From assembly GCF_008704795.1 (NCBI RefSeq), contig NZ_CP023690.1:3916501-3980500 (forward strand): 64,000 bases of DNA, read 5' to 3'. The notes under the pieces are model-generated. The model was not told where the DNA came from, did no database searches, and saw only the letters and a program-made list of their open reading frames with translations. The translations under genes and the position numbers were made by a program. Positions 8,061-59,775 of the stretch are shown here, piece by piece. Within the stretch, counting starts at the first letter, position 1. Each line of letters begins with the position of its first letter. This DNA comes from Streptomyces spectabilis (GTDB lineage Bacteria > Actinomycetota > Actinomycetes > Streptomycetales > Streptomycetaceae).

Positions 8061-8513
8061 TTGTTGAGTACCGCAAAGCCGTCGTCACCCGGCGTCTCTC
8101 TCCGGATGAGTCGCCAGGCGAGCCGAGACACCGCTCCCGAGATGGCCGTGCGACGGCTGTTGCACGCGGACGGGCATCGATACCGACTCAACGTCCGTGT
8201 CCCGGGAATGCCCCGACGGACGATCGACATCGCGTTCACCCGCGCCAAAGTGGCGGTCTTCCTCGACGGCTGCTTCTGGCACGGCTGCCCGGAGCACGCG
8301 ACGCAGCCCAAGGCGAACGCGGAGTGGTGGCGCCACAAGCTCGACCGCAACATCGCCCGCGACACGGAGACGAACGAACGTTTGACCGATGAGGGATGGA
8401 TCGTTCTACGGTTCTGGGAACATGAAGCACCCGATCGTGTGGCCGAGCGCGTGGCGGCCGCCGTCGCACGACAACGCCGGGTGCGTCGACCGCAGAGCGA
8501 GGGAGAGCAGTGA
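8061..8513 (+). CDS. vsr: Very-short-patch repair endonuclease Vsr
   Basis: A 150-aa Vsr endonuclease, which nicks 5' of T in T:G mismatches left when 5-methylcytosine deaminates. It shows SRDTAPEMAVRRLLHADGHRYRLN, the strand with catalytic Asp in IDIAF (residue about 56), the zinc/active-site region VFLDGCFWHGCPEH with both His residues, and EWWRHKLDRNIARD. TTG 8061 or TTG 8064 is the start; neither has a strong ribosome site. Its TGA overlaps the GTG of the next methyltransferase gene, so repair and methylation genes are coupled, as for dcm-vsr pairs elsewhere. Confidence 0.92.
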   Translation: MLSTAKPSSPGVSLRMSRQASRDTAPEMAVRRLLHADGHRYRLNVRVPGMPRRTIDIAFTRAKVAVFLDGCFWHGCPEHATQPKANAEWWRHKLDRNIARDTETNERLTDEGWIVLRFWEHEAPDRVAERVAAAVARQRRVRRPQSEGEQ

Positions 8514-9481
8514 GCGGCTTGAGATTCGTGGATGTCTGCTCCGGCGGCGGAGGGCTGGCCCTCGGGCTGGAACAGGCCGGCTTCCAACCGGTCCTGCTCC
8601 TGGACGAGAAGCAGGTCGCCTGTGAAACGCTGCGGACGAACAGGCCCGCGTGGAACGTCCTCCAGACGGATCTCCAGGACTTCAATCCGGTCGACCACCA
8701 GCAAACGTACGACGTCGACCTGCTCTCCGCCGGCCTCCCTCGGGTGAAGTCCTCAGCGACCGCGAAGCGCGTCGAGACCGGCGCCGAGCTGCGCCTCCTC
8801 GAGGCCACCGTCTACCTGGCCCACGCCGTACAACCCCGAGCTCTCCTGATCGAGAACGTCCCGGGTCTCGTGGACAGTGAGGCGTTCGACGAGGTGCGCT
8901 CCTTCATTCAGGGGGAGCTCGAGCACCTCGGCTACGGCTTCAGCTGGTTCATCCTCAACGCACAGGATTTCGGTGTTCCGCAGGACCGCAAGCAGGGCGT
9001 GCTCGTCGCCCTGAAGAAGCAGTACTTCGGCAGGTTCCAGCCGCCCACGTCGACGGTGACGCGTTACACGACGGCGGGAGAGGCACTTCACCCCTCGATG
9101 TCGGCGCGAGGCTGGACGGGCACCGACGACTGGGCGAAACAAGCGGACCAGGTGGCTCCGACCCTGGTCGGCGGCTCGGACAAGCGAGGAGGCGCCGATC
9201 TCGGGCTGACCGGCTCCAAAAGGGCGTGGGCCCGCATGGGAATCAACGGCGGCGCGCTGGCCGACGAGGTACCCGGACCGGACGGCGAACAGGAATCGGA
9301 CAATTCCGGCTCTTCTCTGAAGAAGCTCACGGTGGACCAAGCAGCCGTCCTCCAGGCCTTTCCCACTGACTGGATCTTCGCCGGAAAGAAGACGGCCCGC
9401 TATCGCCAGATCGGGCACGCCTCTCCACCACCTGTCGGCAAGGCCTTGGGGACATCGATCGCCGATGCCCTGCAGGGCTGA
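8510..9481 (+). CDS. C5-cytosine methyltransferase-like protein without catalytic Cys
   Basis: A 323-aa protein with the C5-methyltransferase fold. It has the SAM-binding motif I (FVDVCSGGGGLALGL, residues 6-20), motif VI IENV (114-117), DFGVPQDRK (motif VIII) and a motif-X-like region QIGHASPPPVGKAL. Motif IV, usually PCQ or PCP with the nucleophilic Cys, reads AGLPRVKSSATAKR (74-87), so the Cys is Arg. Motif IX/X residues also differ (QIGH for QIGN). The frame is intact with no sign of decay. It may be a partner subunit for the next methyltransferase, a DNA reader, or an enzyme with other chemistry. GTG 8510 overlaps the vsr stop. Confidence 0.85.
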   Translation: MSGLRFVDVCSGGGGLALGLEQAGFQPVLLLDEKQVACETLRTNRPAWNVLQTDLQDFNPVDHQQTYDVDLLSAGLPRVKSSATAKRVETGAELRLLEATVYLAHAVQPRALLIENVPGLVDSEAFDEVRSFIQGELEHLGYGFSWFILNAQDFGVPQDRKQGVLVALKKQYFGRFQPPTSTVTRYTTAGEALHPSMSARGWTGTDDWAKQADQVAPTLVGGSDKRGGADLGLTGSKRAWARMGINGGALADEVPGPDGEQESDNSGSSLKKLTVDQAAVLQAFPTDWIFAGKKTARYRQIGHASPPPVGKALGTSIADALQG

Positions 9482-9543
9482 CCGGCTGCGAAGACTCTCC
9501 CATCGGCTCTCCCGTGCGGACCTGAGCACCACCCGCCGCCGGC

Positions 9544-9557
9544 TACACTTCAATCCC
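9544..9557 (+). promoter_or_regulatory. Likely leaderless promoter of second methyltransferase
   Basis: TACACT at 9544-9549 is a good actinomycete -10 hexamer and ends 8 bases before ATG 9558. No ribosome-binding sequence precedes the ATG. The transcript would begin at or within a few bases of the start codon, so this methyltransferase can be expressed apart from vsr. Confidence 0.45.
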
Positions 9558-10781
9558 ATGACCCCCGCACCTGACCGACCTCTCCGGCCTGCAGATTTCC
9601 GTATCGTGGATCTGTTTGCCGGCCCCGGCGGCCTCGACATCGCCGCCACGGTCATGGGAGTGGAGTCCATCGGGGTGGAGTGGGACGACCCGACACGCAC
9701 CACCCGTGCAGCGGCCCGCCTGCGGACCACGGAGGAGAAGGACGTCGCGAACCTCGGCCCCTGCGATGCGGAGGTCGAGGATGCGAACGTGCTCACGGGG
9801 GGGCCCCCGTGCCAGTCCTTCTCGGTCGCGGGAAACCGCGAGGGACACAAAGCGCTGGAGGACGTCAAGCGGCTGGCCACGCGTCTGAGTGGGCACGAGA
9901 CCGTGGCCTCCTTCGAAGCTGCCTGGAAAGAGGTCAAGGCCGAGACCGACGCCATGTCGGACGAACGCACAGGTCTCGTGCTCCAGCCACTCCGTTGGAT
10001 CATGGAAGCCAAGCTCAAGCGCGGTAGACCGTACGACGTCATCCTCCTGGAACAGGTGCCGACGGTTCTGCCCGTGTGGAAGCACTACGTCCACATCCTC
10101 CGGGACGCCGGCTATGCCGCTGACGCCCACGTCCTCCACTCCGAGGACTTCGGCGTCCCTCAGACCCGCCGTCGCGCCGTACTGATCGCCCGGTACGCGC
10201 CGGAGAGCAGCACCAAGACCGTGGAGTTCCCCCGACCGACCCATCAGCGGTACCGTCCGGGGGCCGAGCGTCTTCCCGAGCGGAAGGAGCCCGAGCAGGA
10301 CCAGCAGGCAGCCCTGTTCGCGCGCCCCGAGGCTGACGATCCCATCGAGCGCTGGACGGCGATGCAGGACGTCCTGCTCGACCGCCCCGCCGACTTCGTC
10401 GTGGTCTCCAACTACGGCTCCGGCGGTGACCCCAAGAAGCGCGGCCGGCGTACGTCCGAGGAACCCTCGGCCACTGTCACCGGCAAGATCCGGCGTAACC
10501 GCGTCTACCTTCTGAAGGAGACGAAGTCCGGCTCGAAGGAGATGGGGGAGGAGCTCGACCGACTGGATTTCAAGGAAGCGGGCCTTCTTCAGTCCTTCCC
10601 CGCCGCATATCCCTGGCGATCGACGGATGTGGCCCAGCAGATCGGCAATGCCATTCCGCCGCGTCTTTCTCTGCACATCCTGAGCTGTGCGCTCGGGTTC
10701 GGGCGACCGGACCGTGACCTGCTCGACAGGCTGAGGGAGTGGCGGCCCCCGGCTGACGACGACTCCGCCGGGAGCGACTGA
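9558..10781 (+). CDS. dcm: DNA cytosine-5 methyltransferase
   Basis: A 407-aa C5-cytosine methyltransferase. Motif I is IVDLFAGPGGLDIAA (16-30), motif IV GGPPCQSFSVAGNR contains the catalytic Cys (about 85), motif VIII is VPQTRRRAVLIAR and motif X is QIGNAIPPRLS. Motif VI reads EQV where most family members have ENV. An unusual segment of about 65 residues with many charges follows motif IV. ATG 9558 is chosen because homology starts there and a -10 precedes it. It may supply self-marking DNA methylation for the island. The target site cannot be read. It ends 22 bp from the convergent operon. Confidence 0.93.
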   Translation: MTPAPDRPLRPADFRIVDLFAGPGGLDIAATVMGVESIGVEWDDPTRTTRAAARLRTTEEKDVANLGPCDAEVEDANVLTGGPPCQSFSVAGNREGHKALEDVKRLATRLSGHETVASFEAAWKEVKAETDAMSDERTGLVLQPLRWIMEAKLKRGRPYDVILLEQVPTVLPVWKHYVHILRDAGYAADAHVLHSEDFGVPQTRRRAVLIARYAPESSTKTVEFPRPTHQRYRPGAERLPERKEPEQDQQAALFARPEADDPIERWTAMQDVLLDRPADFVVVSNYGSGGDPKKRGRRTSEEPSATVTGKIRRNRVYLLKETKSGSKEMGEELDRLDFKEAGLLQSFPAAYPWRSTDVAQQIGNAIPPRLSLHILSCALGFGRPDRDLLDRLREWRPPADDDSAGSD

Positions 10782-10803
10782 AGGCGCCGTCCGACCAGAG
10801 TCG

Positions 10804-11676
10804 TCAGTCTTCACCGTCCTCGTCCGCCACTCGGCCGCGCACCGGCGCATCGGCGAACAGCTCCGCGAAGTGGTCGGCCAGCAACTCCACCGAGCTGCCG
10901 GGGGCCCGCTCCTCGTTCGGTCCCTCCGGGAGCATCCTGCGGGGCACCGGCCCGGCCGACTCGGATGCCTCGATCCACTCCTGTCCCGGAAGTCCGTCAC
11001 GCTCGACGTCCGGAGCGATGACGTCGTACATCAGGGTGGCCGCGGAGGCGTTGACCGCCTTCCCCAAGGCGTTCACTTCACGGCCCGTCGTCACCGCACC
11101 CGTCTCCATCAGCCGCACCATGGCCAGCGCCGTGGGTCGGTGGTCGATGACATCGAGGCGGAGGAGGGTGTTGGGCACGTCCTGAACACCACAGGCCGTG
11201 ACGACGGGCCGATAGTCAGGGCCGTTCCGGAAGAGCTCCGCCATCCACCAGAGTCGAGCGAAGGCTTGTGTGTCCGCGGGCCCACGGAACCGACCGGCCG
11301 CCACCTTCGAGCGTTTACCATGCCGCCAGACGACGTAGTCCGGGGCGATTCCCAGAGCAAGGTGGTTCCACAGTCTTCGGTCGGCGGCTTCCCTGCGGCT
11401 CAGCCGCAGTGTGGCGTGCAGCCGAGGAGCGAGCCAGGCGTCCGCCTGGGTCGGCTTCCCGCCCTCGTACTCGTGCATCGCGTCTTCGACGAGCTCCCTC
11501 AACGGTCCCGACGCGGTGCGAGCTCCCTCGTGGGGCAAGGGTTCCACGACCTTGTCGAGCGCTATGGCAGGGACGCCCTCCTTCCCGTTGAGCAGCCCGT
11601 CCGTGATGTACTGCGCCGCATTGAGATCGGAGAGCAGCGCCAAACGCTCAGGAACATAGGCCGGTTTGTGGATCAT
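10804..11676 (-). CDS. Unknown defence-island protein (DUF6339-like?)
   Basis: A 290-aa soluble protein, mainly helical in character, with no motif that I can assign firmly. The start (ERLALLSDLNAAQYITDGLLNGKEG) resembles from memory the DUF6339 family, which occurs near methyltransferases and ATPases; this is a weak link. It contains a Trp/Arg-rich middle (RRLWNHLALGIAPDYVVWRHG) and an acidic C-terminus ending VADEDGED. ATG 11676 overlaps the stop of the upstream gene (ATGA) and has a GGGGG-containing ribosome site. It is the last gene of the XRE-GHKL operon. Confidence 0.6.
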   Translation of the reverse strand: MIHKPAYVPERLALLSDLNAAQYITDGLLNGKEGVPAIALDKVVEPLPHEGARTASGPLRELVEDAMHEYEGGKPTQADAWLAPRLHATLRLSRREAADRRLWNHLALGIAPDYVVWRHGKRSKVAAGRFRGPADTQAFARLWWMAELFRNGPDYRPVVTACGVQDVPNTLLRLDVIDHRPTALAMVRLMETGAVTTGREVNALGKAVNASAATLMYDVIAPDVERDGLPGQEWIEASESAGPVPRRMLPEGPNEERAPGSSVELLADHFAELFADAPVRGRVADEDGED

Positions 11677-12668
11677 GCGTCCGCCCCCTGGTGAAGTCGG
11701 TCCAGGCCACGGATCGCGGTGGACAGGGCCTTGGGCATCTGGGCCCTCTGTGTGGCGGCGAAATGGATACGGGGCTGGAGATCGATCCATCCGGATGCTC
11801 CGGCGCGTCGTCGATGGACCTCGCCCAAGGCCTCCTCGAGCGGTCGACCGGGCATGACGTCCGGGAGCATCTCGCGGAGCACTTCGCCCCGCCAGTCGTG
11901 GGAGAAGAGTGGCGTACCGTCCTCCTCGATCTCCAGGTCACCGATGGCGACGTGAAACACGGCGGTCCACACGTCCGTGCGCATCTGGGCGAGCATCAGG
12001 TCACGAACCAGCCCCTCGGCTGCGGATCCGGCGCCGGACAACAGGTCCGTGAGGCCCTCGAAGTCGGTGTTCACATGGACGGCCGCCACGTCACCGGAGG
12101 TGTCCACGATCCAGGGCACCCCCTTGAAGGGCTGCAGCCACTGCGGCCCCTTGCTGAAGCTGACTTCGACGACGTCGAGCTCGCGTTGCCGCTTGGGCGC
12201 CCTGGCGGACAGGTCGACGATCCAGTCCTTCTGCGAAGTGGCGATGACACGTCCGGCGACACCGTCGGTCCTGGCGACCACGTGGACGTTCAGAGAAGCG
12301 CGGTCGAGGTGATCGGCACGCCACACGTCCATGGAGCCGGTCCACTCCCGCCCGCTCTCCGTGCTGGGCTCCAGAGGAACGACTGTTCGCGCATTGGTGG
12401 CCCCTTCCGCCAGCACTGCGACGACCGACACATCGGACCAGGGGCCATCGGGGTCCGTGGCCTTGCTCGGAACGGTGGCCGAGAGCTTCAGACGTGCGCT
12501 CTCCCAGTCGTCGCGCTCGGTCCCGCCGAGAGCGACCACCTGCTCGACGGCGGAGAACGCCTTGACGTCGAGTGGTTCCCGACTCTCGCCCGGGGCCTTC
12601 AGTTCCACAGCGGTCACGCGTAGTGACACGCGGCCGGAGAGACGTGGGTACGGATAGGCCCTCATCAC
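11673..12668 (-). CDS. Unknown defence-island protein
   Basis: A 331-aa soluble protein that I do not recognise. The first 130 residues look beta-rich (SGRVSLRVTAVELKAPGE, RLKLSATVPSKATD, VSVVAVLAEG, LNVHVVARTDG); the rest mixes strands and helices (ELDVVEVSFSKGPQWLQPF, WIDLQPRIHFAATQRAQMP). No catalytic signature is clear. GTG 12668 overlaps the stop of the XRE-GHKL gene by 4 bp (GTGA), with a GGGGGAC ribosome site; an ATG 3 bases on is an alternative. Tight overlaps on both sides mean it acts together with the GHKL ATPase and the following protein, probably in a complex. Confidence 0.6.
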   Translation of the reverse strand: MMRAYPYPRLSGRVSLRVTAVELKAPGESREPLDVKAFSAVEQVVALGGTERDDWESARLKLSATVPSKATDPDGPWSDVSVVAVLAEGATNARTVVPLEPSTESGREWTGSMDVWRADHLDRASLNVHVVARTDGVAGRVIATSQKDWIVDLSARAPKRQRELDVVEVSFSKGPQWLQPFKGVPWIVDTSGDVAAVHVNTDFEGLTDLLSGAGSAAEGLVRDLMLAQMRTDVWTAVFHVAIGDLEIEEDGTPLFSHDWRGEVLREMLPDVMPGRPLEEALGEVHRRRAGASGWIDLQPRIHFAATQRAQMPKALSTAIRGLDRLHQGADA

Positions 12669-14788
12669 TTGTCCCCCTTGCCCGTTCGCAGCTCGACGAC
12701 AAGGCTGCTGAGCGTGCTCTTGACCGGGTGGGTCGTCACATCGGTGACGCCGCTGAAGGTCGCTCTCCGCGCTCCGCCGGTGAAGTGCAGTACCCCGTCC
12801 ACCACTTCACAGTTGTGCACCGCTGCGAGTTCCGACCACGCCAGTACCGGCTTCGGCCCCGACCGCACGGCCAACTTGGCAACCGGAACCAGGGGCCAGG
12901 AGTCACCGCCCGCCGGGATCTTCACCTCGGCGGTGATGCACCAGGCGCCGCCATCGCCGATGTGGGCGTGCAACTCGTCCAGCGTCGGCAGACCGGCGAC
13001 CGTCGCGGGCCGCACCGCACGCTTGCCGCCGACCGCCAGTCGCTTGCGGATCCGTTCGGCGCTCGTGCGTCGCTTCTCCTTGGGCGCCGCCACGAGTTCG
13101 CGCACGGCCTTGTGGGTCTCCTGGACCAGGGACCCGATCCGTCGGTACGCGGAGGGCGAGTAACGCGTCCGCAGTTCGTCCGTCTGCCCCCACTTGTCGT
13201 GCTCGGGCGGCTCTGACGCGCGCAGGAAGGTCTCGGCCTCGTCGGCGAAGGGCGCCCCGTCACCGGCGGCGTGTCCGGCAAGCAGCACAGCCTGGAAGGG
13301 GTCGGTACCGATGGGCAGGTTCGGGACCGGTTTCATCCTGACCGTCATGCGGTTGCCCCTCATCGTCGTCAGGGTGTTCAGCACCCCGTCGTCGTCTTCG
13401 GCCTCCGTCACGAGGAGCACTGCCCGGTGCTCCCCTCCGCTCCTCCGCTCCTCCCGGCCGGGCACGCTCAACGGCACGGTGGTCATGACCACTTGGCCCG
13501 CCCCCTTCTCCGTCAGGCGTTCCACCGTCGTGCCGTCCAGGAAGGCCTGCAGTGCGCGGGTGCGCGAAGGTTGTGAGGCCCTGGGGTCCACGCGCTCCTC
13601 CGCGATGACCTCCGCCCCGTTGCGCAGCGTTCGCACGGATGCCTCCAGGAGTGGCCGACGGCCCGCACCGGAGGTCATGGCGGCCCAGAAGTTCCGCTCG
13701 AGAGCCTGGACGAGCCGCCCATGCATGCGGTGCACACTGTCGTCGTCCGCCACCCCGTCACCTTCGGACGACGTGGCATCGATGAGGCTGGCGACGTCGT
13801 GGGCACCGACGATCAGGAACGACGTGCCGGGTTCGTCGCCCTCACGCGTGAGGCGCAGCTGTTCGACGATCCCCTCGTCGGCCCACCAGGAGCGGGCGAC
13901 GTCGGCTCCTTCCACGTGGGGATCCGGCCTGCCGAACCAGGCAGGCCCGGCCCACGCCTTGCCGTCGACCTCACGCCACGGCAGATCGAGACGTCCGATG
14001 AGCCGTCCCTCCGTGCGCCCCTCGTGCGGCTCGTGCAGGGTGGAGTTGACCAGCACGAGGCCGAGTCGGCTGGCCGCCCAGAGCGTGGCCTTTCCCAGAC
14101 CGTACGAACCACCGGCGTGCCTTCCCGACTTGTGACTGTCGAGCTGACGTCGCATGACGGCCGCGAAACGACCATCTTCGTAGTCATCGCCGGTCAGACC
14201 ATGCGCGTTGTAGTCATCGACCCGCAGAAGGACCAGTCGGTCCCGCGTGTTCATGTCGCGGAGACCAGCGGAGATGGCCTGCCCCACCTTCTGGTCCTGC
14301 GACGCCGCAGCCTCGTAGTGCGGGACGAGTTCCTCCCAGCGGATCGCCCGGCGGAATCGAGCCAGGGTCTCCCCTGTCAGCTCGTCCAGCGTGTATCGGA
14401 CACGCACCGGTCGTCCGCCGTCGACGATGCGTTCGTCGAGGCTGTTCTGGGTGGCTTCGCGGGCCAACGCCGACACATCGGCCTCGAACGCGAAGGCCGC
14501 CGGGTTGCCGAACTCCCGACCCCCGTCGAGGGGTGCGGGCCGGTGATACCAAGCAACGGGTCGACCGACGAGGGTGTCCGTAGTGCGATTACGCACCGTG
14601 CCGAGATCCGTACCGAGAGCTTCCGCGATCTTCCTGATCGTCTCGTCGCGCGGTCTCGCCCGCCCGGTGATCCAGGCCGAAACCGCAGCACGCGTCACTC
14701 CCACGGAGGTCGCCAGCTCCGTCTGCGTCCTCCCGGCCATCCTCAACTGCCGGGCCAGCCAAGGCCCGAAGTCTTCCCCACCGTCCAC
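12665..14788 (-). CDS. XRE-type HTH fused to GHKL ATPase
   Basis: A 707-aa protein. Residues about 8-60 form an XRE/Cro helix-turn-helix (MAGRTQTELATSVGVTRAAVSAWITGRARP). A GHKL (Hsp90/MutL-type) ATPase follows: N-box ALAREATQNSLDE (about 107-119), LLRVDDYNAHGL (G1-like, about 188-199) and GGSYGLGKATLW (G2, about 226-237). The C-terminal 400 residues are not recognised. GTG 14788 is preferred because AGGAG lies 8 bases upstream; a TTG at 14848 would add 20 residues. The HTH suggests it binds the nearby palindromes and controls the island. The GHKL part could sense or remodel DNA-bound complexes. It is the first gene of a coupled three-gene operon. Confidence 0.82.
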   Translation of the reverse strand: MDGGEDFGPWLARQLRMAGRTQTELATSVGVTRAAVSAWITGRARPRDETIRKIAEALGTDLGTVRNRTTDTLVGRPVAWYHRPAPLDGGREFGNPAAFAFEADVSALAREATQNSLDERIVDGGRPVRVRYTLDELTGETLARFRRAIRWEELVPHYEAAASQDQKVGQAISAGLRDMNTRDRLVLLRVDDYNAHGLTGDDYEDGRFAAVMRRQLDSHKSGRHAGGSYGLGKATLWAASRLGLVLVNSTLHEPHEGRTEGRLIGRLDLPWREVDGKAWAGPAWFGRPDPHVEGADVARSWWADEGIVEQLRLTREGDEPGTSFLIVGAHDVASLIDATSSEGDGVADDDSVHRMHGRLVQALERNFWAAMTSGAGRRPLLEASVRTLRNGAEVIAEERVDPRASQPSRTRALQAFLDGTTVERLTEKGAGQVVMTTVPLSVPGREERRSGGEHRAVLLVTEAEDDDGVLNTLTTMRGNRMTVRMKPVPNLPIGTDPFQAVLLAGHAAGDGAPFADEAETFLRASEPPEHDKWGQTDELRTRYSPSAYRRIGSLVQETHKAVRELVAAPKEKRRTSAERIRKRLAVGGKRAVRPATVAGLPTLDELHAHIGDGGAWCITAEVKIPAGGDSWPLVPVAKLAVRSGPKPVLAWSELAAVHNCEVVDGVLHFTGGARRATFSGVTDVTTHPVKSTLSSLVVELRTGKGDK

Positions 14789-15228
14789 TGCCGCCACTCC
14801 TAGCTGCTGCCAGCATCGGGGCCCCACCCTACCAGCGCTGTTTGACAAACGGTGCCTTGTATAAGGTTAATTGACAGGCCGATCCGCCCTCGGGAGGATC
14901 GACGGCAGCACGATCCGCACCAATGGCGAGCCTTGCCCGTTTCGTCCCACTGGGCCGTCGGTCACCCCGAGCGGCCAGCTCCAGGCACACCAGATCGCCC
15001 CGCGACCGCCACAGCCCACCGTCGGAACGTGATTGCGTTCCTTTTCCTCAAAGCCCTTGCGACGGCGACAAGGTCAACCCTAGGGTCCTTTGTGCAGAAA
15101 TATCTGCCGCCTCACGGGCATCCCGCGGAGAGGGATTTCGCCACGCCCTCCTTTCCGTATGCACCTTCGCAGAATGCGCCGCACCGCACCACCCGAAGCA
15201 CTTCCATTCCGAGAGGATGAGGATTCCC
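14789..15228. promoter_or_regulatory. Divergent control region of the defence island
   Basis: This 440-bp region lies between the minus-strand XRE-GHKL operon and the plus-strand helicase operon. Near 14840-14876 it is AT-rich: a perfect palindrome GTTTG-A-CAAAC (14840-14850), a second TTGACA (14871-14876, 29 bp from the first) and CCTTGTATAAGG (14855-14866), whose outer arms are inverted. These are plausible sites for the XRE-type protein. The TTGACA to TATAAG spacing is only 12 bp, so a simple sigma-70 promoter is not proved. From 14890 to 15210 no convincing gene is seen; a long frame exists but lacks a ribosome site and family-like sequence. Confidence 0.5.
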
Positions 15229-15579
15229 GTGACCCACTCCTTCGAAGACGATCCCGTGCTGAAAATGATGCGCGACTTCGTGACCCGGTACGACTCCCTC
15301 GCAGGCGAGGAGAGCAAGGCCGCATTCCTGACCGACCAGCACATCACGTTCGGAGTGGTTCAGACCTATCGGAAGCTGCTCGACATCATGGATCGCAGGG
15401 CGGCCGCCCTTCCGGGCACCTCGGCCGCTTCCTCGATCCGTCGCCGCCGTCGCACGCGGCGTGCCCTGACGGCCCCGCCCGGGCGTCCCGGCATCCGTAG
15501 CCGTTCGCCCCGCAAACGCCCCGGCGGCCGCCGTGTCACCCTCGTCATCACGCTGGACATCGACCTCGACACGCCGTAG
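15229..15579 (+). CDS. Small unknown protein with basic tail
   Basis: A 116-aa protein unknown to me. The first 64 residues are acidic and helical (FEDDPVLKMMRDFVTRYDSLAGEESKAAFLTDQ, QTYRKLLDIMDRRAAAL). Residues about 70-100 are very Arg-rich (SIRRRRRTRRALTAPPGRPG, RKRPGGRR), and the end returns to VTLVITLDIDLDTP. The basic stretch could bind nucleic acid. GTG 15229 is chosen because AGGA lies 5 bases upstream; ATG 15217 is an alternative. It is the first gene of the plus-strand operon, 110 bp before the giant helicase gene, so it may be a system subunit or regulator. Confidence 0.5.
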   Translation: MTHSFEDDPVLKMMRDFVTRYDSLAGEESKAAFLTDQHITFGVVQTYRKLLDIMDRRAAALPGTSAASSIRRRRRTRRALTAPPGRPGIRSRSPRKRPGGRRVTLVITLDIDLDTP

Positions 15580-15689
15580 AAACCCCCTGGCCACCGGCCT
15601 GCGCGGTCACCCTCGCCGAGCTCGCCGGTCGTGTCCGTAGCGCGGCACGGCCGGCGCCCACCGCCGCCGATCACAGAAACGGATACCTG

Positions 15690-20462: not shown

Positions 20463-22369
20463 TCGACACACATTCAGGCACCCCCACACTCACGGTCGAG
20501 CAGCGAGCTGTGGTCGCCCAACCCTGGGACGCCCGGCTCCTGGTGACGGCAGGCGCGGGCACAGGCAAGACCCATACCGTCGTACGGCGGCTCGATGCTC
20601 TGGTGAGCCACGAGGAGGAGGCTCTACGGTCCGGTGAGATCCTGGTACTCAGCTTCTCCCGCGCCGCCGTGCGGGAGCTGCGCGAGCGGATCGCCAGTCA
20701 CGGTCGGCACGCCCGCCGGGTCCGTGTCCAGACGTTCGACTCCTGGGCACACGCGCTACTGAACAGCGCCTGGCCGGAACACGACTGGAGCCGTTGCTCC
20801 TTCGACGAGCGCATTCACGAGGCGGAGAAGGCGATCATCGGCGGGGCGGTGGAGGCGGGAGAGCTCGGTGCCCCGGCGCATGTCGTCATCGACGAGGCAC
20901 AGGACCTGGTCGGGGCCCGTCGAAACATGGTGGAGACGCTGCTGGACCGGTTCCAGGACAGCTGCGGGTTCACAGTGTTGGGGGACGGCGCGCAGTCCGT
21001 GTACGGATTCCAGGTCTCCGATCCCGGGGCGCGAGCCGCCGAGAACAACTACTTCTTCGACTGGCTGCGCGCCTCGTACGCCGACGACCTGGTCGAGCTG
21101 CATCTGACGACCAACTTCCGGGCCAGGACCGAGGAAGCGCGCACCGCGCTTCCTCTGGGACCCGCGCTCCGGCGCTCCTGCTCCGACACCGGTGAAGCGG
21201 CGAAGGTCGGCGACTCCTCTTACCGAGCGCTGCGCGAGAGCCTGTTGGCCTGTCCCGACTTCGGCGAGCTCTCGGAGGCCTTCGCCATCGACTCGCTCCG
21301 CCACTACCCCGGTACGTGCGCCGTCCTCTGTCGGGACAACCGGCAAGCACTGATCCTGTCGGAGACTCTGTTCGAGCACCGCGTGCCTCACAAGCTCCAG
21401 CGATCCCTTCAGGACCGCCCGGTGCCCTCCTGGGTGGCAGGCCTGCTGCGGCGGACGGGATCCACGACCCTGGGCGAGGAGCGCTTCCGGCACCTCCTTG
21501 CCGAGGTCGGTGATGCGTGCGACATCGATGCGGCGCGCGCCTGGCGCTCCCTGCGCGGTGCAGCACGCACTTCGCGCGGCCTGCTGGACCTGTCCGCGGT
21601 GCGGCGACTCGTCGCCGAGGGTCGCTTCCCCGACGACCTGGTGGCCGGCGAACCCGTGTCTCTGGTCGTCTCCACGATCCATCGCGCCAAGGGGCTCGAG
21701 TTCGACCGGGTGATCATCGTCGAGCCCCCGGTCGTCACCGAGTTGAGCAGACAGCACAGTCACATCGATTCGGCAGGCGAGGCGCGGGCGCTGTACGTCG
21801 CGATGACCCGCCCCCGGGAGGACCTCTATCGGATCGCCGCTCCGAACACCCGGCACATCCGCCGTGATCGCGCCATCAGTCGTTGGTACGTGGGCGGCCC
21901 GAAGGCATCCATGCGCCGAGGTATCGAAAGCACCGGCCGTGACGTCTGCCGGGAACATCCTCCGGGTACGGACGGCTTCCACCGTGACCCGGCGGCTGTC
22001 CAGGAGCAGCTCGCCACCACTGCTCGCAGTGGTGATCCACTCGTCCTGCGGCGCCTCCATGGCCTTCAGCCGGACGCCGACCAGAGCCCTCCCTATGTGA
22101 TCCATCACCGGCGGACCCCCGTCGGCATGACCTCCGAGACCTTCCGACGGGACCTGAGTGCGTCCCTCAGGATCAGCCGGAAGTGGGAGGTCTCCTGGCC
22201 CTCCGAGATCATCGGGTTCCGGATCGACACCGTGGAGGCGGTGGCAGGCAGCAGGGCTTCAGGATCTCGAGCAGGGCTGGGCGAGCACGGGGTGTGGCTG
22301 GTACCGCGCATGTCCGGCCTGGGGCACTACAAGTGGGGCGAACAGACCCAGGAAGGTCATGAGGCATGA
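20459..22369 (+). CDS. UvrD/Rep-like SF1 helicase
   Basis: A 636-aa SF1A helicase. Motifs in order: Q-motif LTVEQRAVV; Walker A TAGAGTGKT (about 30-38); motif Ia LVLSFSRAAVRELRERI; motif II VIDEAQDL (about 141-148); motif III GDGAQSVYGF; motif V VSTIHRAKGLEFDRVII; motif VI ALYVAMTRPRE. The C-terminal region of about 130 residues has no known domain and no nuclease motif is visible, unlike RecB or AddA. ATG 20459 overlaps the previous stop. It would unwind DNA beside the other two helicases. Confidence 0.92.
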   Translation: MIDTHSGTPTLTVEQRAVVAQPWDARLLVTAGAGTGKTHTVVRRLDALVSHEEEALRSGEILVLSFSRAAVRELRERIASHGRHARRVRVQTFDSWAHALLNSAWPEHDWSRCSFDERIHEAEKAIIGGAVEAGELGAPAHVVIDEAQDLVGARRNMVETLLDRFQDSCGFTVLGDGAQSVYGFQVSDPGARAAENNYFFDWLRASYADDLVELHLTTNFRARTEEARTALPLGPALRRSCSDTGEAAKVGDSSYRALRESLLACPDFGELSEAFAIDSLRHYPGTCAVLCRDNRQALILSETLFEHRVPHKLQRSLQDRPVPSWVAGLLRRTGSTTLGEERFRHLLAEVGDACDIDAARAWRSLRGAARTSRGLLDLSAVRRLVAEGRFPDDLVAGEPVSLVVSTIHRAKGLEFDRVIIVEPPVVTELSRQHSHIDSAGEARALYVAMTRPREDLYRIAAPNTRHIRRDRAISRWYVGGPKASMRRGIESTGRDVCREHPPGTDGFHRDPAAVQEQLATTARSGDPLVLRRLHGLQPDADQSPPYVIHHRRTPVGMTSETFRRDLSASLRISRKWEVSWPSEIIGFRIDTVEAVAGSRASGSRAGLGEHGVWLVPRMSGLGHYKWGEQTQEGHEA

Positions 22370-25300
22370 CGAGCGACACGAGAAACCACTCGGCGCACTA
22401 CGCGGTCCGCGCAAGTCTGCTGGCCCGCCTGCGGACGGACCTGCTGGGCCCCCGGGCCGACGACGAGGTCCTCGTCCAGGATCCTCCGATCACGAGCTAC
22501 CCGATCGGCGTGCTGTTCCCGCGGCCCGCGTCCGGGACGGCCGAGGAAGAACTCGCTGCCGATGTCGCGGAGAACGACGGACTGGACGAGACCGCCGTGC
22601 TCGGGCGGGGTGACATCGAGGAATCCACCCCGGACCTCGGCACCTCCTCGGCCAACGACCGACGCCCCTCCTCCATGGGACTCACCTTCGCGGTGGACCC
22701 CGAGGTCTCCTCCACGATCGTCGTCACAGCCGAGGCCGCCGTGTACGACCCGGTCGACGCCTCCGGACGCCCGGTCACCGCCAGACGCGCCGAGGCACGC
22801 AGCACCGCCGACCAGGTCGAGCGCTGGCGGCGACGGCCGCTGGACCTCCCAGCGGTCACGGTGGATGTCCGCAGCCCCGGCACGCAGCACCCGGGCCCCC
22901 TCGCAGACGGTGTGAGCATCCGCGCCCTGGTCCGGGAGACGTCGCACGACGGCACCGTCACCGTCACCGTCACTCTGATCAACGAGAACCGGGTCGGCGA
23001 ACGTGAACTGCAGGACGCCTTCAGCCTGTTCCAGTGCCGTCTCACCGTGAGCAGCCCCTCGGGTGAGCGGGCGCTGGTCGAACGGCATCCCACCTCGGGG
23101 GCCGTCGATGAGGAGCAGGCCTTGAGCAGGCTGCTCCACCGACACGCTCCGACCTTTGCCACCGGCCACGGCTGCGCTGCCGACTGGGAGTGGGAACCGC
23201 CCGCTGTCGGTTCCCCGGCCGTGGGACGCGCTGCGGTCGACCGGGTCAGGACCGAGTTCGTGCCCACGCACGAAGTGCTGCTGACCGACTCCAACCCGGA
23301 GATCGATGCCTCGGCCCTCGCCATGCACGGGATGGCTCATCGCCCCGACTCCGAGATCCTGTCGGCGCTCGAACGCCTCCTGGCCGGGTACGAGGAATGG
23401 ATCGACCGGAAGGAGGTCGAGGCGGACGGGCTGGCCGGTACGCCTTTCGGTCCTCCCGCCCAGGAGCAGATCGAGCTGTGTCGTTCGGCCCTCGGCCGTA
23501 TGCGCCGTGGGATCGGTCTCCTGGCCGATCACGACCGGCCCGAGATCATGCACGCCTTCAGGCTCACCAATGAGGCCATGGCCCAGCAGCGAGCCCGTAG
23601 CTCCTGGGTGAGGAGCGGCCGGGAGGGTCTGCCCGACCCGGCCGCGGGACGATGGCGACCGTTCCAGATCTCCTTCATGCTTCTCTGCCTCGAAGGGGTC
23701 GTCGACCCGGAACACGAGGACCGGAAGGTCGCCGACCTTCTCTGGTTCCCGACCGGTGGCGGCAAGACAGAAGCGTACCTCGGCCTGATCGCCTTCACCA
23801 CCTTCCTCCGTCGACTGCGCCTGGGGACCCGCGGGGCCGGGGTGACCGTGCTGATGCGCTACACGCTACGGCTGCTCACCCTGCAGCAGTTCGAGCGCGC
23901 TGCCCTGCTCATCTGCGCCATGGAACGGATGCGGCTCTCCGACGAGAAGCTGCTCGGCAGCGAGCCGATCTCCATCGGCATGTGGGTCGGCCAGTCAGCC
24001 ACCCCGAACACCTTGAGTGCCGCAGCGAACAGTCTCCTCGAGCTCCGTAAGGGGAAGTCCCTCCAGGAGAAGAACCCCGTCCAACTCCACGCGTGCCCCT
24101 GGTGCGGCTCCCGTCTCGATGCCTACCAGTACGAGGTGGACGAGGAGGCACGCAGGCTGCGCGTGCGGTGCCCGGACTCCTCCTGCGATTTTCGTGACGG
24201 ACTACCGGTCCACCTGGTCGACGACGCCGTCTACGAGGCCCGCCCCACCCTGGTCATCGCCACGGTGGACAAGTTCGCCTCCATGCCGTGGCGTGAGAAG
24301 ACCGCGGCGCTCTTCAACCGGGATCGCGCGGACGACACGCCTCCCCCCGAATTGATCGTCCAGGACGAGCTCCATCTCATCTCAGGACCGCTCGGGACCC
24401 TCACCGGCCTCTACGAAACCGCGGTGGACCTGCTCGCCGACCGTCCGAAGGTGATCGCGTCGACCGCGACCATCCGCAGGGCGGGCGACCAGGGCAAAGC
24501 ACTGTTCGCCCGCAGTGTCTCCCAGTTCCCTCCGGCCGGACTGGACTCGCGCGACTCCTGGTTCGCCGTGGAGGCGCCCCGAGAACGCCAGGCCAGTCGC
24601 CAGTACGTCGGACTGCTCACCCCGAGCATGAGTCAATCGACCCTGCTCATCCGCACGTACGCCACGCTGCTGCACCAAGCCGTGCAGGCCGAGACCTCCC
24701 CCGAGGTGCGTGACGCCTACTGGACGCTGGTCGGCTACTTCAACAGTCTGCGGCTGCTGGCCGCCGCGGACCTTCAGGTCAAGGACGACGTCGAGGCGTA
24801 TCTGGAGCACTTGGCCGAACGCGACGGCACCGAACGACGGCGCGTCGTCGAGGTGACTGAGCTGACCAGCCGGGCCACCTCCAGCGAGGTCCCCGCGCGA
24901 CTGAAGCAGATCGAACTGCGGCTCCCGCACCCCGAGACGGTCGATGTCCTGCTCGCCACGAACATGATCTCCGTCGGTGTCGACGTGGATCGACTCGGGC
25001 TGATGGCCGTCATGGGTCAGCCTCAGACCACGGCCGAGTACATCCAGGCCACGAGCCGTGTCGGTCGCAGCCATCCGGGCCTCGTCACCGTCATGTTGAA
25101 CTCGATGCGGTCCAGGGACCGCTCGCACTACGAGAACTTTCTGCACTATCACTCCGCGCTCTATCGCGAGGTGGAGTCGACATCGGTGACTCCGTTCTCC
25201 GCCCGCTCCCGCGACCGCGGACTGCACGCGGTGGTGGTCGCGCTCGCCCGGATCCTCATCCCTGCGGCTCGCCCCAACGAGGGCGCGGGACGTATCGATG

Positions 25301-25593
25301 AGTTCCGTGACGAACTCAGGCAACTGGTCAGGCCGGCCCTGCTCGAACGTGTGGGCGCCGTCGACAGCGACGCGTACGAGGCGACGGCCCGTGACTTCGA
25401 CGCGTTCGTCGACCGGTGGGCGGACGAGGCCGACGCCCATGGCGGCCTCCACTACGAGCCTGTACGCGGCAGGAGGACCCCCTCCCTGCTCCGCAGCTTC
25501 GACGACGAGTCGAACGACGGGGCCTGGCCGACCCTGTGGAGTCTGCGCGATGTGGACGCGGAGACCGCTCTGTTCATGGAGGCATCACGATGA
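22366..25593 (+). CDS. drmA: DrmA-like DISARM helicase
   Basis: A 1075-aa SF2 helicase matching DrmA, the core helicase of DISARM. Walker A is WFPTGGGKTEAYLGL (about 460-473) and motif II is the DrmA-type IVQDELHLISGPLGTL (about 664). There is an inserted Cys cluster (CPWC at about 577, CPDSSC at about 605) likely to bind zinc. The C-terminal helicase part has DVLLATNMISVGVDV and EYIQATSRVGR. In DISARM, DrmA and DrmB form a DNA-binding complex that loads on free 5' ends. ATG 22366 overlaps the SF1 helicase stop, and the gene's own stop overlaps drmB. Confidence 0.88.
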   Translation: MTSDTRNHSAHYAVRASLLARLRTDLLGPRADDEVLVQDPPITSYPIGVLFPRPASGTAEEELAADVAENDGLDETAVLGRGDIEESTPDLGTSSANDRRPSSMGLTFAVDPEVSSTIVVTAEAAVYDPVDASGRPVTARRAEARSTADQVERWRRRPLDLPAVTVDVRSPGTQHPGPLADGVSIRALVRETSHDGTVTVTVTLINENRVGERELQDAFSLFQCRLTVSSPSGERALVERHPTSGAVDEEQALSRLLHRHAPTFATGHGCAADWEWEPPAVGSPAVGRAAVDRVRTEFVPTHEVLLTDSNPEIDASALAMHGMAHRPDSEILSALERLLAGYEEWIDRKEVEADGLAGTPFGPPAQEQIELCRSALGRMRRGIGLLADHDRPEIMHAFRLTNEAMAQQRARSSWVRSGREGLPDPAAGRWRPFQISFMLLCLEGVVDPEHEDRKVADLLWFPTGGGKTEAYLGLIAFTTFLRRLRLGTRGAGVTVLMRYTLRLLTLQQFERAALLICAMERMRLSDEKLLGSEPISIGMWVGQSATPNTLSAAANSLLELRKGKSLQEKNPVQLHACPWCGSRLDAYQYEVDEEARRLRVRCPDSSCDFRDGLPVHLVDDAVYEARPTLVIATVDKFASMPWREKTAALFNRDRADDTPPPELIVQDELHLISGPLGTLTGLYETAVDLLADRPKVIASTATIRRAGDQGKALFARSVSQFPPAGLDSRDSWFAVEAPRERQASRQYVGLLTPSMSQSTLLIRTYATLLHQAVQAETSPEVRDAYWTLVGYFNSLRLLAAADLQVKDDVEAYLEHLAERDGTERRRVVEVTELTSRATSSEVPARLKQIELRLPHPETVDVLLATNMISVGVDVDRLGLMAVMGQPQTTAEYIQATSRVGRSHPGLVTVMLNSMRSRDRSHYENFLHYHSALYREVESTSVTPFSARSRDRGLHAVVVALARILIPAARPNEGAGRIDEFRDELRQLVRPALLERVGAVDSDAYEATARDFDAFVDRWADEADAHGGLHYEPVRGRRTPSLLRSFDDESNDGAWPTLWSLRDVDAETALFMEASR

Positions 25594-27422
25594 CCCCGCA
25601 GCCCGCTCGCCGACGCCGAGGCGCCGGTGCTCCCGAGCGCAGCTTTCCCCGACGAGGATCCGTCCGGCGCTCACAGATGATCACGACGTACGGAGTCGGT
25701 TCACTGATCGCGGTCGAGAACGAGTCGTTCATCGTCGCCGGCACGGACTCGTGGAACATCAGCGATGCCTCAGTGATCCGCGAGGACCGGCTCGCACGGC
25801 TCCTCGGCGTGCGTCACTTCCTCCTGCCTCCCGCTTCGAGCGACACCAGCAGGGACGGCGTACATGTACGCCGCTTCCCACTGTGGCACTCGTGCCCGAA
25901 CTGCAACACCTTGCAGCACGTGCGGGATTTCAACTCCCCGCCGGGCAGGAACGAATGCGGTGACTGCCAGGAGGACCTGGTTCCCTCCCGCTTCGTCATG
26001 GCGTGTGCCCAGGGGCACATCGACGATTTCCCCTACTGGAAGTGGGCCCACCGCGACAATCGAACCGAGGACGCGTCGGGCCACTGCAAGGGCGAAATGC
26101 GCATGCGCACGAGTGGCCGAACCGCCTCCTTGCGATCCGTCCTCATCTCATGCACCTGTGGCATTCCGGAGGTCTCGATGGAAGGGGCCTTCCGACGCTC
26201 GGCATTGGTCAACCTCAAGGTACGGTGCGAGGGCAAGCGGCCCTGGCTCAAGCTCGCGTCCCCGGAGTTCTGCTCCGAGCCACCCCGCACCCTCCAGCGC
26301 GGTTCATCCGCGGCCTGGCATCCGATCATCAGGTCGGCGCTCTCGATCCCGCCGGAGGAGAACGATCTGGCCGACCGTCTCGCACCGCACTGGGCCGATC
26401 TCCGCAGCCTCGACCGCTCCGAGATCCCCATTTTCCTGAAGGTCCTCACGATGCGGGGCGGTGGTGAATTCTCCACCGAAGGGGTGCTCGCCCTCCTCGA
26501 CGCAGATCAGTCGGAGAGTCCAGGGCAGAAGGCGGAAGTGGGGGGAGGCGCGTATCTCGCGCTGCGCAAGCAGGAGTACGCACACTTGCGCAACGGAACT
26601 GTCGAGCGCGACGGAGGGCGGGACCAAGAGTTCGTCTGCGAGCCGTCGACCACCGATTCGACCAGACTGACGCGGATCGGCCTGGCACGTCCCATGCTCG
26701 TCAGACGGCTGCGCGAGGTCCGGGCTCTGAAGGCCTTCTCCCGTGTGGAGGCCCCTGACGTCAACACGGAAGTCCACGAGGCCGGGTTGTCACTTGCCGA
26801 CCTCGATTGGCTACCCGCCATGGAGGTCGAGGGCGAGGGGGTGTTCCTCCGCCTCGACGAGGAACGGATCGATTCGTGGTCCCGGAGCGTGGCGGTCTCC
26901 GCCCGGGTGGAACGCATGCGGACGCACCATCGGCGTCAACTCCGGGAGCGGGCCTCGGACGCGAGAAATGCACCCGACTCTCCCGCTACTCCCCGAATGG
27001 TGCTGCTCCACACCCTGGCGCACGTACTCATCAACGAATGGAGCCTGGACGGCGGCTACCCCGCCGCGGCACTCCGGGAGCGTCTCTACTCGGACGACAC
27101 CATGGCGGGAGTCCTCATCTACACAGCGACCAGCGACTCGGCCGGAAGCCTCGGTGGTGTGGTGGCGCAGGGCGAGCCCGAACGTCTGGCCCTCACGTTG
27201 CGGTCCGCCCTGGACCGTGCGCAATGGTGTTCCGCCGACCCTCTCTGCATCGAGTCGGAGGCGAGCGGAGCGGGCAGTGTCAATCTCGCGGCGTGCCACT
27301 CCTGTGTCCTGTTGCCCGAGACGAGCTGCGAGCACAACAACGGCTTGCTCGATCGTGCCCTACTCGTGGGAACCCCGGAGGATCCGTCCACAGGATTCTT
27401 CCGCGGCACCCCGGATCGCTGA
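25590..27422 (+). CDS. drmB: DrmB-like DUF1998 protein
   Basis: A 610-aa protein typical of DrmB, the partner of the DrmA helicase. The N-terminus has the DrmB-type SVRRSQMITTYGVGSLIAVE. Two zinc-like clusters follow (CPNCNTLQ..., ECGDCQ, ACAQGHIDDFPYW). The DUF1998 region near the C-terminus reads VLLHTLAHVLINEW, YTATSDSAGSLGGVV, then Cys-rich CSADPLCIES, CHSCVLLPETSCEHNN. ATG 25590 overlaps the drmA stop and has GGAGG 7 bases upstream. It is the last gene of the island; no PLD gene (drmC) follows, which is where DISARM loci often have it. Confidence 0.88.
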   Translation: MTPQPARRRRGAGAPERSFPRRGSVRRSQMITTYGVGSLIAVENESFIVAGTDSWNISDASVIREDRLARLLGVRHFLLPPASSDTSRDGVHVRRFPLWHSCPNCNTLQHVRDFNSPPGRNECGDCQEDLVPSRFVMACAQGHIDDFPYWKWAHRDNRTEDASGHCKGEMRMRTSGRTASLRSVLISCTCGIPEVSMEGAFRRSALVNLKVRCEGKRPWLKLASPEFCSEPPRTLQRGSSAAWHPIIRSALSIPPEENDLADRLAPHWADLRSLDRSEIPIFLKVLTMRGGGEFSTEGVLALLDADQSESPGQKAEVGGGAYLALRKQEYAHLRNGTVERDGGRDQEFVCEPSTTDSTRLTRIGLARPMLVRRLREVRALKAFSRVEAPDVNTEVHEAGLSLADLDWLPAMEVEGEGVFLRLDEERIDSWSRSVAVSARVERMRTHHRRQLRERASDARNAPDSPATPRMVLLHTLAHVLINEWSLDGGYPAAALRERLYSDDTMAGVLIYTATSDSAGSLGGVVAQGEPERLALTLRSALDRAQWCSADPLCIESEASGAGSVNLAACHSCVLLPETSCEHNNGLLDRALLVGTPEDPSTGFFRGTPDR

Positions 27423-43678: not shown

Positions 43679-43723
43679 GGTGCGTCGTCTTTGCGGGGCC
43701 CGGTACGGCGCGTCTCGTCGGGG
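43679..43723 (-). promoter_or_regulatory. Guanidine-III riboswitch (ykkC-III type)
   Basis: Read on the minus strand, the leader contains CCCCGACGAGACGCGCC, then GTACCGGG, then AAAGACGACGCACC. From memory this order of conserved blocks (GACGAG, GCGCCGTACC, GACGACGC) matches the small guanidine-III aptamer pseudoknot. It ends about 20 bases before the GGAGG of the Gdx gene, so ligand binding would free the ribosome site and raise export when guanidinium builds up. Confidence 0.82.
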
Positions 43724-43749
43724 TCCCTCCACGGTAGCAAAGGGCAGAC

Positions 43750-59608: not shown

Positions 59609-59775
59609 GACTGTGCGGTCCTCCTCCAGGGGATTTCCGCGTCCCCTGCGTCAAGTGGGAGGAGGCGGCAGGTCAGTTCCTGACTCCCGGCACGCGCGCG
59701 TGCCGGTCACAGTGGCGGGACCGCGCCGGACTCACACCGGCTTCCTGGGGTCCTGCCGCCTCGAAGGTCGGGATC
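59609..59775 (-). promoter_or_regulatory. Cobalamin riboswitch
   Basis: On the minus strand: closing stem GGCGGCAGG/CCTGCCGCC (59752-59760 with 59664-59672), then GAAGCCGGTGTGAGTCCGGC, the B12 box GCCACTGT (59709-59716) and GGAGTCAGGAACTGACC. These are the conserved parts of the Cbl aptamer. Between aptamer and start a CAGGGG...CCCCTG stem abuts the GGAGGAGG ribosome site, so B12 binding probably blocks translation. Confidence 0.93.

Follow-up and report, generated by a model that had tools for sequence, protein, structure and literature searches.

A locus of ten genes at positions 8061-27422 of a 64,000-nucleotide stretch of Streptomyces spectabilis DNA (the window; positions 3916501-3980500 of a single-contig 9.8-Mb genome, NZ_CP023690.1) joins the helicase core of DISARM to a portable DNA-marking cassette and probably has an antiviral role. 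Judged from its sequence, we regard it as a form of DISARM not described before, in which the predicted self-marking module is exchangeable. Our comparisons established the two-module anatomy, its conservation, its position in a hotspot and the missing cysteine of one of its two methyltransferases. The original prediction, made from the letters of the window, had treated the locus as a single DISARM-like island. The likeness to DISARM held, and the island resolved into two modules because the methylase/XREGHKL cassette also pairs with other effectors. It had also left room for the set being already catalogued as a named system; none was found among the PADLOC models (among the matches listed), the NCBIfam matches or the open literature surveyed. 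Among the entries listed from that freely accessible literature, none describes this set or reports that a bacterial defence locus contains a dead C5 methyltransferase. Many uncharacterised DISARM-like classes are already said to exist in a 2025 preprint (PMC12458937).

The genes are labelled as follows; XREGHKL, UNK and DUF6339 are called the triplet, and GHKLSF2, SF1, DrmA and DrmB the core (SF1 and SF2, helicase superfamilies 1 and 2; aa, amino acids).

8061..8513, + strand: Vsr, Vsr-family very-short-patch endonuclease; cassette; exact start codon uncertain
8510..9481, + strand: MT1, predicted pseudo-methyltransferase of the C5-methyltransferase fold, with Arg78 in place of the motif-IV cysteine; cassette; PF00145 1.2e-43
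9465..10781, + strand: MT2, C5-methyltransferase with catalytic Cys116, predicted active; cassette; true start may be further in
10804..11676, - strand: DUF6339 protein, predicted all-helical; cassette; PF19866 3.9e-8, 33.7 bits (cut-off 23.2)
11673..12665, - strand: UNK, orphan with a predicted N-terminal beta domain and a helical C-terminal part; cassette
12665..14791, - strand: XREGHKL, XRE helix-turn-helix and GHKL-type ATPase, candidate regulator; cassette; HTH_3 1e-12
14792..15689, no strand: intergenic stretch that separates the divergent cassette and effector operons, candidate regulatory region
15690..20462, + strand: GHKLSF2, fusion of a GHKL (sacsin/Tiamat-like) part and a RadD-like SF2 helicase, 1590 aa; effector core
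20459..22369, + strand: SF1, UvrD/GajB-like SF1 helicase, 636 aa; effector core
22366..25593, + strand: DrmA, YprA-family SF2 helicase; effector core; NF038325 1013 bits (cut-off 950)
25590..27422, + strand: DrmB, DUF1998/MZB partner of DrmA; effector core; NF038324 482 bits (cut-off 240)

Gene content and relationship to known systems

All ten genes are open frames without internal stops. The DrmA- and DrmB-like genes had been predicted to be joined by overlaps to an SF1 helicase and a 1590-aa GHKL-SF2 protein, and the three joins from GHKLSF2 to DrmB are indeed 4-base overlaps (20459-20462, 22366-22369 and 25590-25593). Among 40 relatives the same overlap was found at GHKLSF2/SF1 in 40/40, at SF1/DrmA in 39/40 and at DrmA/DrmB in 31/40, a recurrence beyond chance. 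Vsr, two C5 methyltransferase-fold genes and an XRE-GHKL operon were likewise present where predicted. Thus the gene list stood, except that four start codons were moved: SF1 starts at 20459 (a long open reading frame (ORF) from 19433 overruns the preceding gene), DrmB at 25590, DUF6339 probably at 11676, and XREGHKL probably near 14791 and not at 14848. Third-position GC content was 0.78-0.85 in all ten genes versus 0.87-0.98 in the eight flanking genes measured.

Both DISARM-defining proteins are present: DrmA is a YprA-family SF2 helicase without a DUF1998 part of its own, and DrmB a separate DUF1998/MZB protein, each scoring above its NCBIfam cut-off and matching the PDB complex 7s9v (chain A, by sequence, at 2.7e-248; chain B at 4.5e-86). 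We used PADLOC's definitions, in which DISARM type I requires DrmA, B, C, D and MI, and type II DrmA, B, C, E and MII (PMC9252829). None of DrmC/PLD, DrmD, DrmE and the DrmMI adenine methylase was matched in the ten genes (Pfam and NCBIfam in full, PADLOC among the matches listed), and neither published type therefore fits; the first three had already been reported as not visible in the original prediction. The DrmMII models score far below other PADLOC families on the C5 genes present.

In a DrmA tree of 45 rows (the window, 27 of 77 loci with DrmA, 16 plasmid loci and one locus from genome G006), 28 DrmA proteins from GHKLSF2 loci fell into one clade of 29 (Shimodaira-Hasegawa-like approximate likelihood-ratio test, SH-aLRT, 100), and four class 1 proteins from annotated plasmids formed a branch of their own; the tree was made by a quick method, has long branches among the other rows and contains no verified class 2 DrmA. 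Neighbours of about 800 aa in L107 and L199 gave no match to DrmE models. The closest named DrmA in the tree was from Streptomyces, as were the closest named MT1 proteins. The clade's one other member was on a Tsukamurella plasmid (NZ_LR134452.1; L103, 4792-21117), in a set comprising a C5 methylase, a RelA/SpoT-domain protein, a UvrD helicase, DrmA, DrmB, a DrmD-like helicase and a gene with the annotation restriction subunit M. No GHKLSF2 was annotated in that stretch, and the plasmid looks like a natural exchange of GHKLSF2 for DrmD. On Azospirillum/Rhizobium plasmids (L104, L189, L190), sets of UvrD helicase, DrmA, DrmB and NERD form a separate alphaproteobacterial DrmA branch, and DrmC, DrmD and DrmE were not annotated beside them. 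In G006 (L101, 578-16290) a Mza-like set (MzaB-E matches) adjoins an SF2 helicase and a long DrmA with DrmB.

With DISARM type I/class 1 the locus shares DrmA and DrmB (curated models and the Serratia complex 7s9v). However, DrmC, DrmD and the adenine methylase are unmatched, SF1 and GHKLSF2 partners and a C5 cassette are found instead, and the DrmA forms its separate clade. This DrmA aligns with the Serratia protein only from residue 135 on, the N-terminal ~130 residues being missing; that part is EVE-like in class 1 DrmA (PMC12458937), and because of where the alignment starts the EVE-like part is absent here. The trigger loop is matched by a stretch that is similar in length but poorly aligned. 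The Serratia residue proposed as methylation sensor, V1296 (PMC9142583), corresponds in the alignment to V1063, which was invariant in 12 sequences. With type II/class 2 the locus shares a predicted methylation of cytosine rather than adenine, but DrmE and DrmC are unmatched, the C5 genes fit other PADLOC families far better than DrmMII, and two C5-fold genes are present, one of them without a catalytic cysteine.

The YprA-family helicase and the GajB-like SF1 helicase are shared with ARMADA type II (PMC12458937). Membership was nevertheless rejected, because DrmA and DrmB are separate genes here and the BrxHII-like helicase, the PglX-like methylase and the RelE domain on SF1 are absent; for the last, the helicase match starts at about residue 12 of the 636 aa and leaves no room. 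In Rhodococcoides corynebacterioides (L099, 64-18957, and L157) a GHKLSF2 (52%) is preceded by genes for a type IIG/DrmMI-like methylase, a YprA/DruE-like helicase of 2238 aa and a GajB-like helicase, with two further unknown genes in the operon and the far side cut by a contig end. The order resembles that of ARMADA type II, a classification made in this analysis from the gene content. Streptomyces tropicalis (L183) has a second GHKLSF2 next to a UvrD gene of 873 aa, a relative of the R. corynebacterioides GajB-like helicase; no DrmA is in view there. Judged from these two cases outside the system described here, GHKLSF2 and a GajB-like SF1 helicase look like a recurring pair that may serve both branches of the YprA helicases.

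Operons of the Mza/paraMORC type contain a GHKL protein, an SF2 helicase, a C5 methylase and Vsr (Iyer 2008, PMC2292703). The GHKL ATPase, C5 methylases and Vsr are shared with the locus described here, and the same cassette also stands beside MzaC-like helicases. XREGHKL matches PDC-M33A (4.6e-19) of the PADLOC candidate PDC-M33, a name not found in the literature surveyed, and DUF6339 matches M33C weakly (1.4e-4); both matches are partial, and no M33B match was obtained in the locus at E<=0.01. The N-terminal GHKL region of GHKLSF2 is shared with Tiamat (PADLOC TmtA, 3.3e-41). However, only residues 17-452 of the 1590 match, and the protein has a RadD-like SF2 C-terminus (RadD structure 6jde, 1.1e-34) and other operon partners.

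GHKLSF2 also has a sacsin-type ATP-binding domain (NCBIfam P_loop_sacsin, 67 bits, cut-off 50), and its ATPase motifs were kept in 12 aligned sequences. SF1 matched UvrD-helicase in Pfam (5.6e-25) and GajB in PADLOC (3.3e-26), with the Walker A and DExxD residues invariant in 12 sequences. Pfam finds no GHKL domain in XREGHKL, which we call GHKL because E112..N116..D119 and GGSxGLGK at 227-234 were invariant in 16 sequences. In the alignments, the N-box and glycine box were conserved in XREGHKL and GHKLSF2, and the Walker motifs in GHKLSF2, SF1 and DrmA. Vsr scored 117 bits with NCBIfam TIGR00632 (cut-off 97.85) and 3.9e-17 with Pfam Vsr, and MT2 matched PADLOC MTase_II PDLC03374 at 8.2e-182. 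The structure model of DUF6339 reached a predicted local distance difference test (pLDDT) of 86.7 and a predicted template modelling score (pTM) of 0.87, that of UNK 86.9 and 0.55. A PDB sequence search gave no relative of DUF6339 at E<=1; for UNK it was uninformative (three matches, all E>=0.21), and Pfam gave no match at E<=1. The region between the two operons, 413-1162 bp long in 39 relatives, contains two imperfect inverted repeats here (14889-14971 and 15604-15637). A consensus scan past DrmB for promoters and terminators was uninformative.

Conservation, chromosomal site and separability of the cassette

In a sample of 391 genomes of the order, SF1 was found at E<=1e-30 in 51, the own genome included, and the neighbourhoods of 40 of the 50 foreign matches were fetched for comparison. 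GHKLSF2, SF1, DrmA and DrmB stood in that order in 40/40 of these relatives, accompanied by XREGHKL in 39, UNK in 38 and DUF6339 in 24, the last count being low because many fetched stretches end there. Of 20 further upstream stretches, DUF6339 was found in 19, as were UNK and XREGHKL, against 18 for Vsr, 17 for MT1 and 16 for MT2. Gene order and strands were alike in most relatives examined within the order. Among the others, MT1 sits downstream of DrmB in G337, only the core was found in G012, and G071 has core and triplet with no Vsr or methylases in view.

In a sample of 396 genomes of the phylum, a GHKLSF2 profile matched full-length relatives in 4 and the SF2 part in 2 more. From a scan of named-species genomes the best 80 of 228 GHKLSF2 relatives were kept as loci (two contigs give two loci each); this set and the order set are not independent because some genomes occur in both. 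The core was consecutive in 75/80 named loci, from Actinomycetota and Acidobacteriota, so that the outcome in which the genes recur only separately did not occur. Of the other five, L139, L147 and L157 are cut by contig ends, and L119 and L183 have GHKLSF2 without adjoining SF1-DrmA-DrmB. Within the fetched stretches of the 75 core loci, 71 had a C5 gene, 55 at least two, 57 had Vsr and 55 the full triplet. The hosts include Streptomyces, Actinomadura, Microbispora, Nocardia, Rhodococcus, Pseudonocardia, Amycolatopsis, Actinoplanes and Blastococcus, together with an Acidimicrobiia metagenome-assembled genome (MAG) and two Acidobacteriota (L117 and the MAG L181). The recurrence that the original prediction had called for was thus observed: the same set, with or without Vsr, occurs across families (Actinomadura, Yinghuangia, Umezawaea, Amycolatopsis, Rhodococcus), the core in two phyla, and the site holds other defence genes in relatives. 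A minimal form in Acidimicrobiia (L100/L109) has a C5 gene, Vsr and the four core genes, with no triplet. Pairwise distances correlated at r 0.93-0.96 among the four core genes and at 0.92-0.96 among the triplet genes; shared host ancestry is included in these and all later distance correlations and inflates the values. Recurrent unassigned ORFs in the 80 loci lay only outside the array and none inside, and a hidden nuclease gene inside it was rejected on this ground (the filter on third-position GC may miss an atypical gene).

The gene on the right flank (28455-29819), whose protein has no NCBIfam match at 1e-5, was found in 41/41 genomes of the genus and that on the left (152-1129) in 40/41. 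They were at most 80 kb apart in 29/41, from about 3 kb to about 79 kb, and 27 kb here. Elsewhere they were far apart on one contig in 3 (G782, G783, G785) and on different contigs in 8, and the left gene was not found in 1. Eight intervals were fetched and 10 of their 113 candidate ORFs, none from G799, were tested against PADLOC. Other defence genes were found in the slot in 4/8 relatives on this basis: a different DISARM-like set in G779 (L207, 8050-16115; DrmA 35%, DrmB 34%, C5 methylase and Vsr), type IV restriction enzymes in G092 and G790, and a mads2-like gene in G777. The slot of G788 holds almost nothing, and the one protein tested in each of G778 and G794 gave no PADLOC match. These contents suggest that the site is a defence-gene hotspot with horizontal exchange.

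MT1 is more widespread than SF1, in 92/391 genomes of the order, and 48 of the 51 SF1 genomes have it within about 15 kb. Forty-two genomes have MT1 without a match to SF1, and we examined 20-kb stretches from 18 of them. Here MT1 was without PCQ in 18/18, a PCQ-bearing C5 gene lay in the same 20 kb in 16, and the triplet in 11. Neighbours included a different DrmA-DrmB operon in 5 and an MzaC-like helicase in 5/6 large MT1 neighbours tested; an identified helicase effector stood beside MT1 in 10/18 stretches. By these comparisons the cassette (Vsr, MT1, MT2 and the divergent XREGHKL/UNK/DUF6339 operon), whole or in part, also accompanies other effectors and is separable from the core.

A gathering-threshold Rfam scan of the window found no known RNA element in the island. 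Outside it, one tRNA was found together with a Guanidine-III riboswitch and a cobalamin riboswitch at 43679-43749 and 59654-59771 (sites assigned in the listed order).

The two methyltransferase genes

The original prediction had recognised two C5 genes, and the fold was confirmed for both, but the absence of the catalytic cysteine from MT1 had been overlooked. In MT1, the predicted dead METHYLTRANSFERASE, motif IV reads AGLPRVKSSA versus GGPPCQSFSV in MT2. MT1 retains motifs I, VI (ENV), VIII and X; motif VI of MT2 is EQV, not ENV. In the named loci we took a census of C5-type ORFs with a length of 200 aa or more, a score of at least 340 defining a close MT1 homologue. Of 57 such homologues, 54 have Arg at the motif-IV position, 2 have Ser and 1, from Acidimicrobiia, has Cys; the lower-scoring MT1 rows had Cys in 23/23, and MT2 rows had the catalytic Cys in 52/52. 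Each of the 74 loci with a C5 gene in this census contains a Cys-bearing one, in 56 of them together with a Cys-less one. A search of 5.8 billion proteins gave 1919 relatives of MT1 at E<=1e-40, and Arg was found in 120/120 of the best 120 of these, the window's own included. The named entries among the matches listed are mostly called DNA cytosine methyltransferase. MT1 is thus predicted to be a pseudo-methyltransferase that has lost its catalytic residue, and MT2 to be an active C5 methyltransferase.

Among 77 core loci (the 75 and L139 and L147), 55 have the triplet and Cys-less MT1, 2 the triplet alone, none MT1 alone and 20 neither (Fisher p 1.6e-16, relatives not being independent). In the two loci with the triplet alone, no C5 gene is in view (L170) or MT1 is broken (L172). 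The latter is in Rhodococcus koreensis, where MT1 is a broken remnant at 4071-4601 and MT2, triplet and core are present.

In the 46 loci with both Cys-less MT1 and MT2, distances of MT1 correlated with those of XREGHKL at 0.67, GHKLSF2 at 0.66, DrmA at 0.60, the core as a whole at 0.60-0.66 and MT2 at 0.57. For MT2 the values were 0.46-0.53 with the core and 0.59-0.65 with the triplet. These correlations do not decide whether MT1 is a reader for the effector or a helper of MT2. An apparently far better correlation of MT1 with the core (0.72-0.79) than with MT2 (0.51) was withdrawn, since the MT1 rows had mixed dead and active genes; in the 46 loci the difference is small. An unusual conservation of the target-recognition part of MT1 found no support (mean identity 0.59 versus 0.66 in motifs I-VIII; for MT2 0.46 versus 0.59).

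Proposed mechanism and alternative explanations

The explanation that we favour, with somewhat more confidence than doubt, is an antiviral system of DISARM lineage made of two modules, an effector operon and a marking and restraining cassette. From the gene content we infer a defence function, methylation sensing and a role for MT1. The effector operon (GHKLSF2, SF1, DrmA and DrmB) would recognise and process DNA without the host mark, which the cassette would make while keeping the effector in check. Its motifs suggest that MT2 would methylate host DNA at its own site. The conserved valine is consistent with DrmAB loading on single-stranded or 5'-overhang DNA of unmarked invaders and being restrained by methylated DNA, as has been shown for the DISARM of Serratia (PMC9142583). 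The SF1 and GHKLSF2 motors may join DrmAB in place of DrmD, and cutting may be done by Vsr or a host nuclease. The dead MT1 would bind the target site without modifying it and report its state to the complex, and XREGHKL, UNK and DUF6339 may repress the divergent effector promoter until the host is marked.

Several observations weigh against this explanation. Triplet and dead MT1 are lacking in 20/77 core loci, so the cassette is dispensable. On the tree the triplet changes only 4 times, MT1 following in about 3.5 and never the reverse (sign test p 0.125). The thresholds leave out divergent weak triplets in L119 and L185 beside a Cys-bearing gene only, and a locus, L150, with XREGHKL but without any C5 gene. 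Vsr is not in view in 18/75 core loci, and four have no C5 gene in the fetched stretch. No dedicated effector nuclease was found, the recurrent unassigned ORFs of the 80 loci lying outside the array. In the 46 loci MT1 shows no clearly stronger link to the effector than to MT2.

This last point bears on the possibility that MT1 is no reader but forms a two-protein methyltransferase together with MT2, in which it would be the subunit for regulation or targeting and the locus a DISARM with a heteromeric methylase, a proposal that we can entertain tentatively. A Cys-bearing C5 gene also occurs in 56/56 named loci with a Cys-less one, usually adjoining it, and in the 46 loci the covariation of MT1 with MT2 (0.57) comes close to that with the core (0.60-0.66). 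Eukaryotes offer a precedent in DNMT3L, a regulatory or targeting subunit for an active partner. DRM3 (PMC2965745) has such a role for its active partner too, and inactive DNMT3B forms (PMC3716610) are a further precedent; nothing relevant to two-subunit methylases was found in the literature surveyed. However, MT1 covaries slightly better with XREGHKL (0.67), 18/74 loci with C5 genes do without a Cys-less one, and in 2/18 outside loci MT1 is the only C5 gene within 20 kb, which counts against the favoured explanation as well. It is unlikely that two or three independent defence systems (a restriction-modification or paraMORC-type set and a DISARM remnant) are merely stacked, uncoupled, in the hotspot. 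The cassette does occur with other effectors, the core without the triplet in 20/77 and the site is a hotspot, but order and strands are kept in most relatives examined within the order, the set recurs in genera from Actinomadura to Rhodococcus, and MT1 without this core still has an identified helicase effector beside it in 10/18.

An ordinary class 1 or class 2 DISARM that lacks drmC and has merely divergent accessory genes is rather improbable. Its DrmA and DrmB are bona fide, and DrmC was dispensable in a tested DISARM (PMC9142583). Yet DrmD, DrmE and the adenine methylase are unmatched in the ten genes, the replacement partners are conserved, and the DrmA clade stands apart (SH-aLRT 100), the class 1 rows being on their own branch in a tree with no verified class 2 DrmA. 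We consider a chromosomal role in DNA repair or transfer control, instead of antiviral defence, very improbable. Relatives of YprA, UvrD and RadD act in repair in other bacteria. Some DISARM also acts on conjugation (PMC9142583). However, the locus is patchy (51/391 genomes), its third-position GC is below that of the flanks, and it exchanges with defence genes at a hotspot.

In the open question of how DISARM-type systems distinguish self from non-self, methylation has a part, but restriction also extends to phages that lack the methylation site (PMC9142583). The locus indicates that DrmAB can pair with motors other than DrmD, and that a whole family of Cys-less proteins goes under the name of cytosine methyltransferase in databases. 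The conserved, predicted dead methyltransferase, together with a marking enzyme and a GHKL regulator and plugged into different helicase effectors, is a candidate reader or methylase partner.

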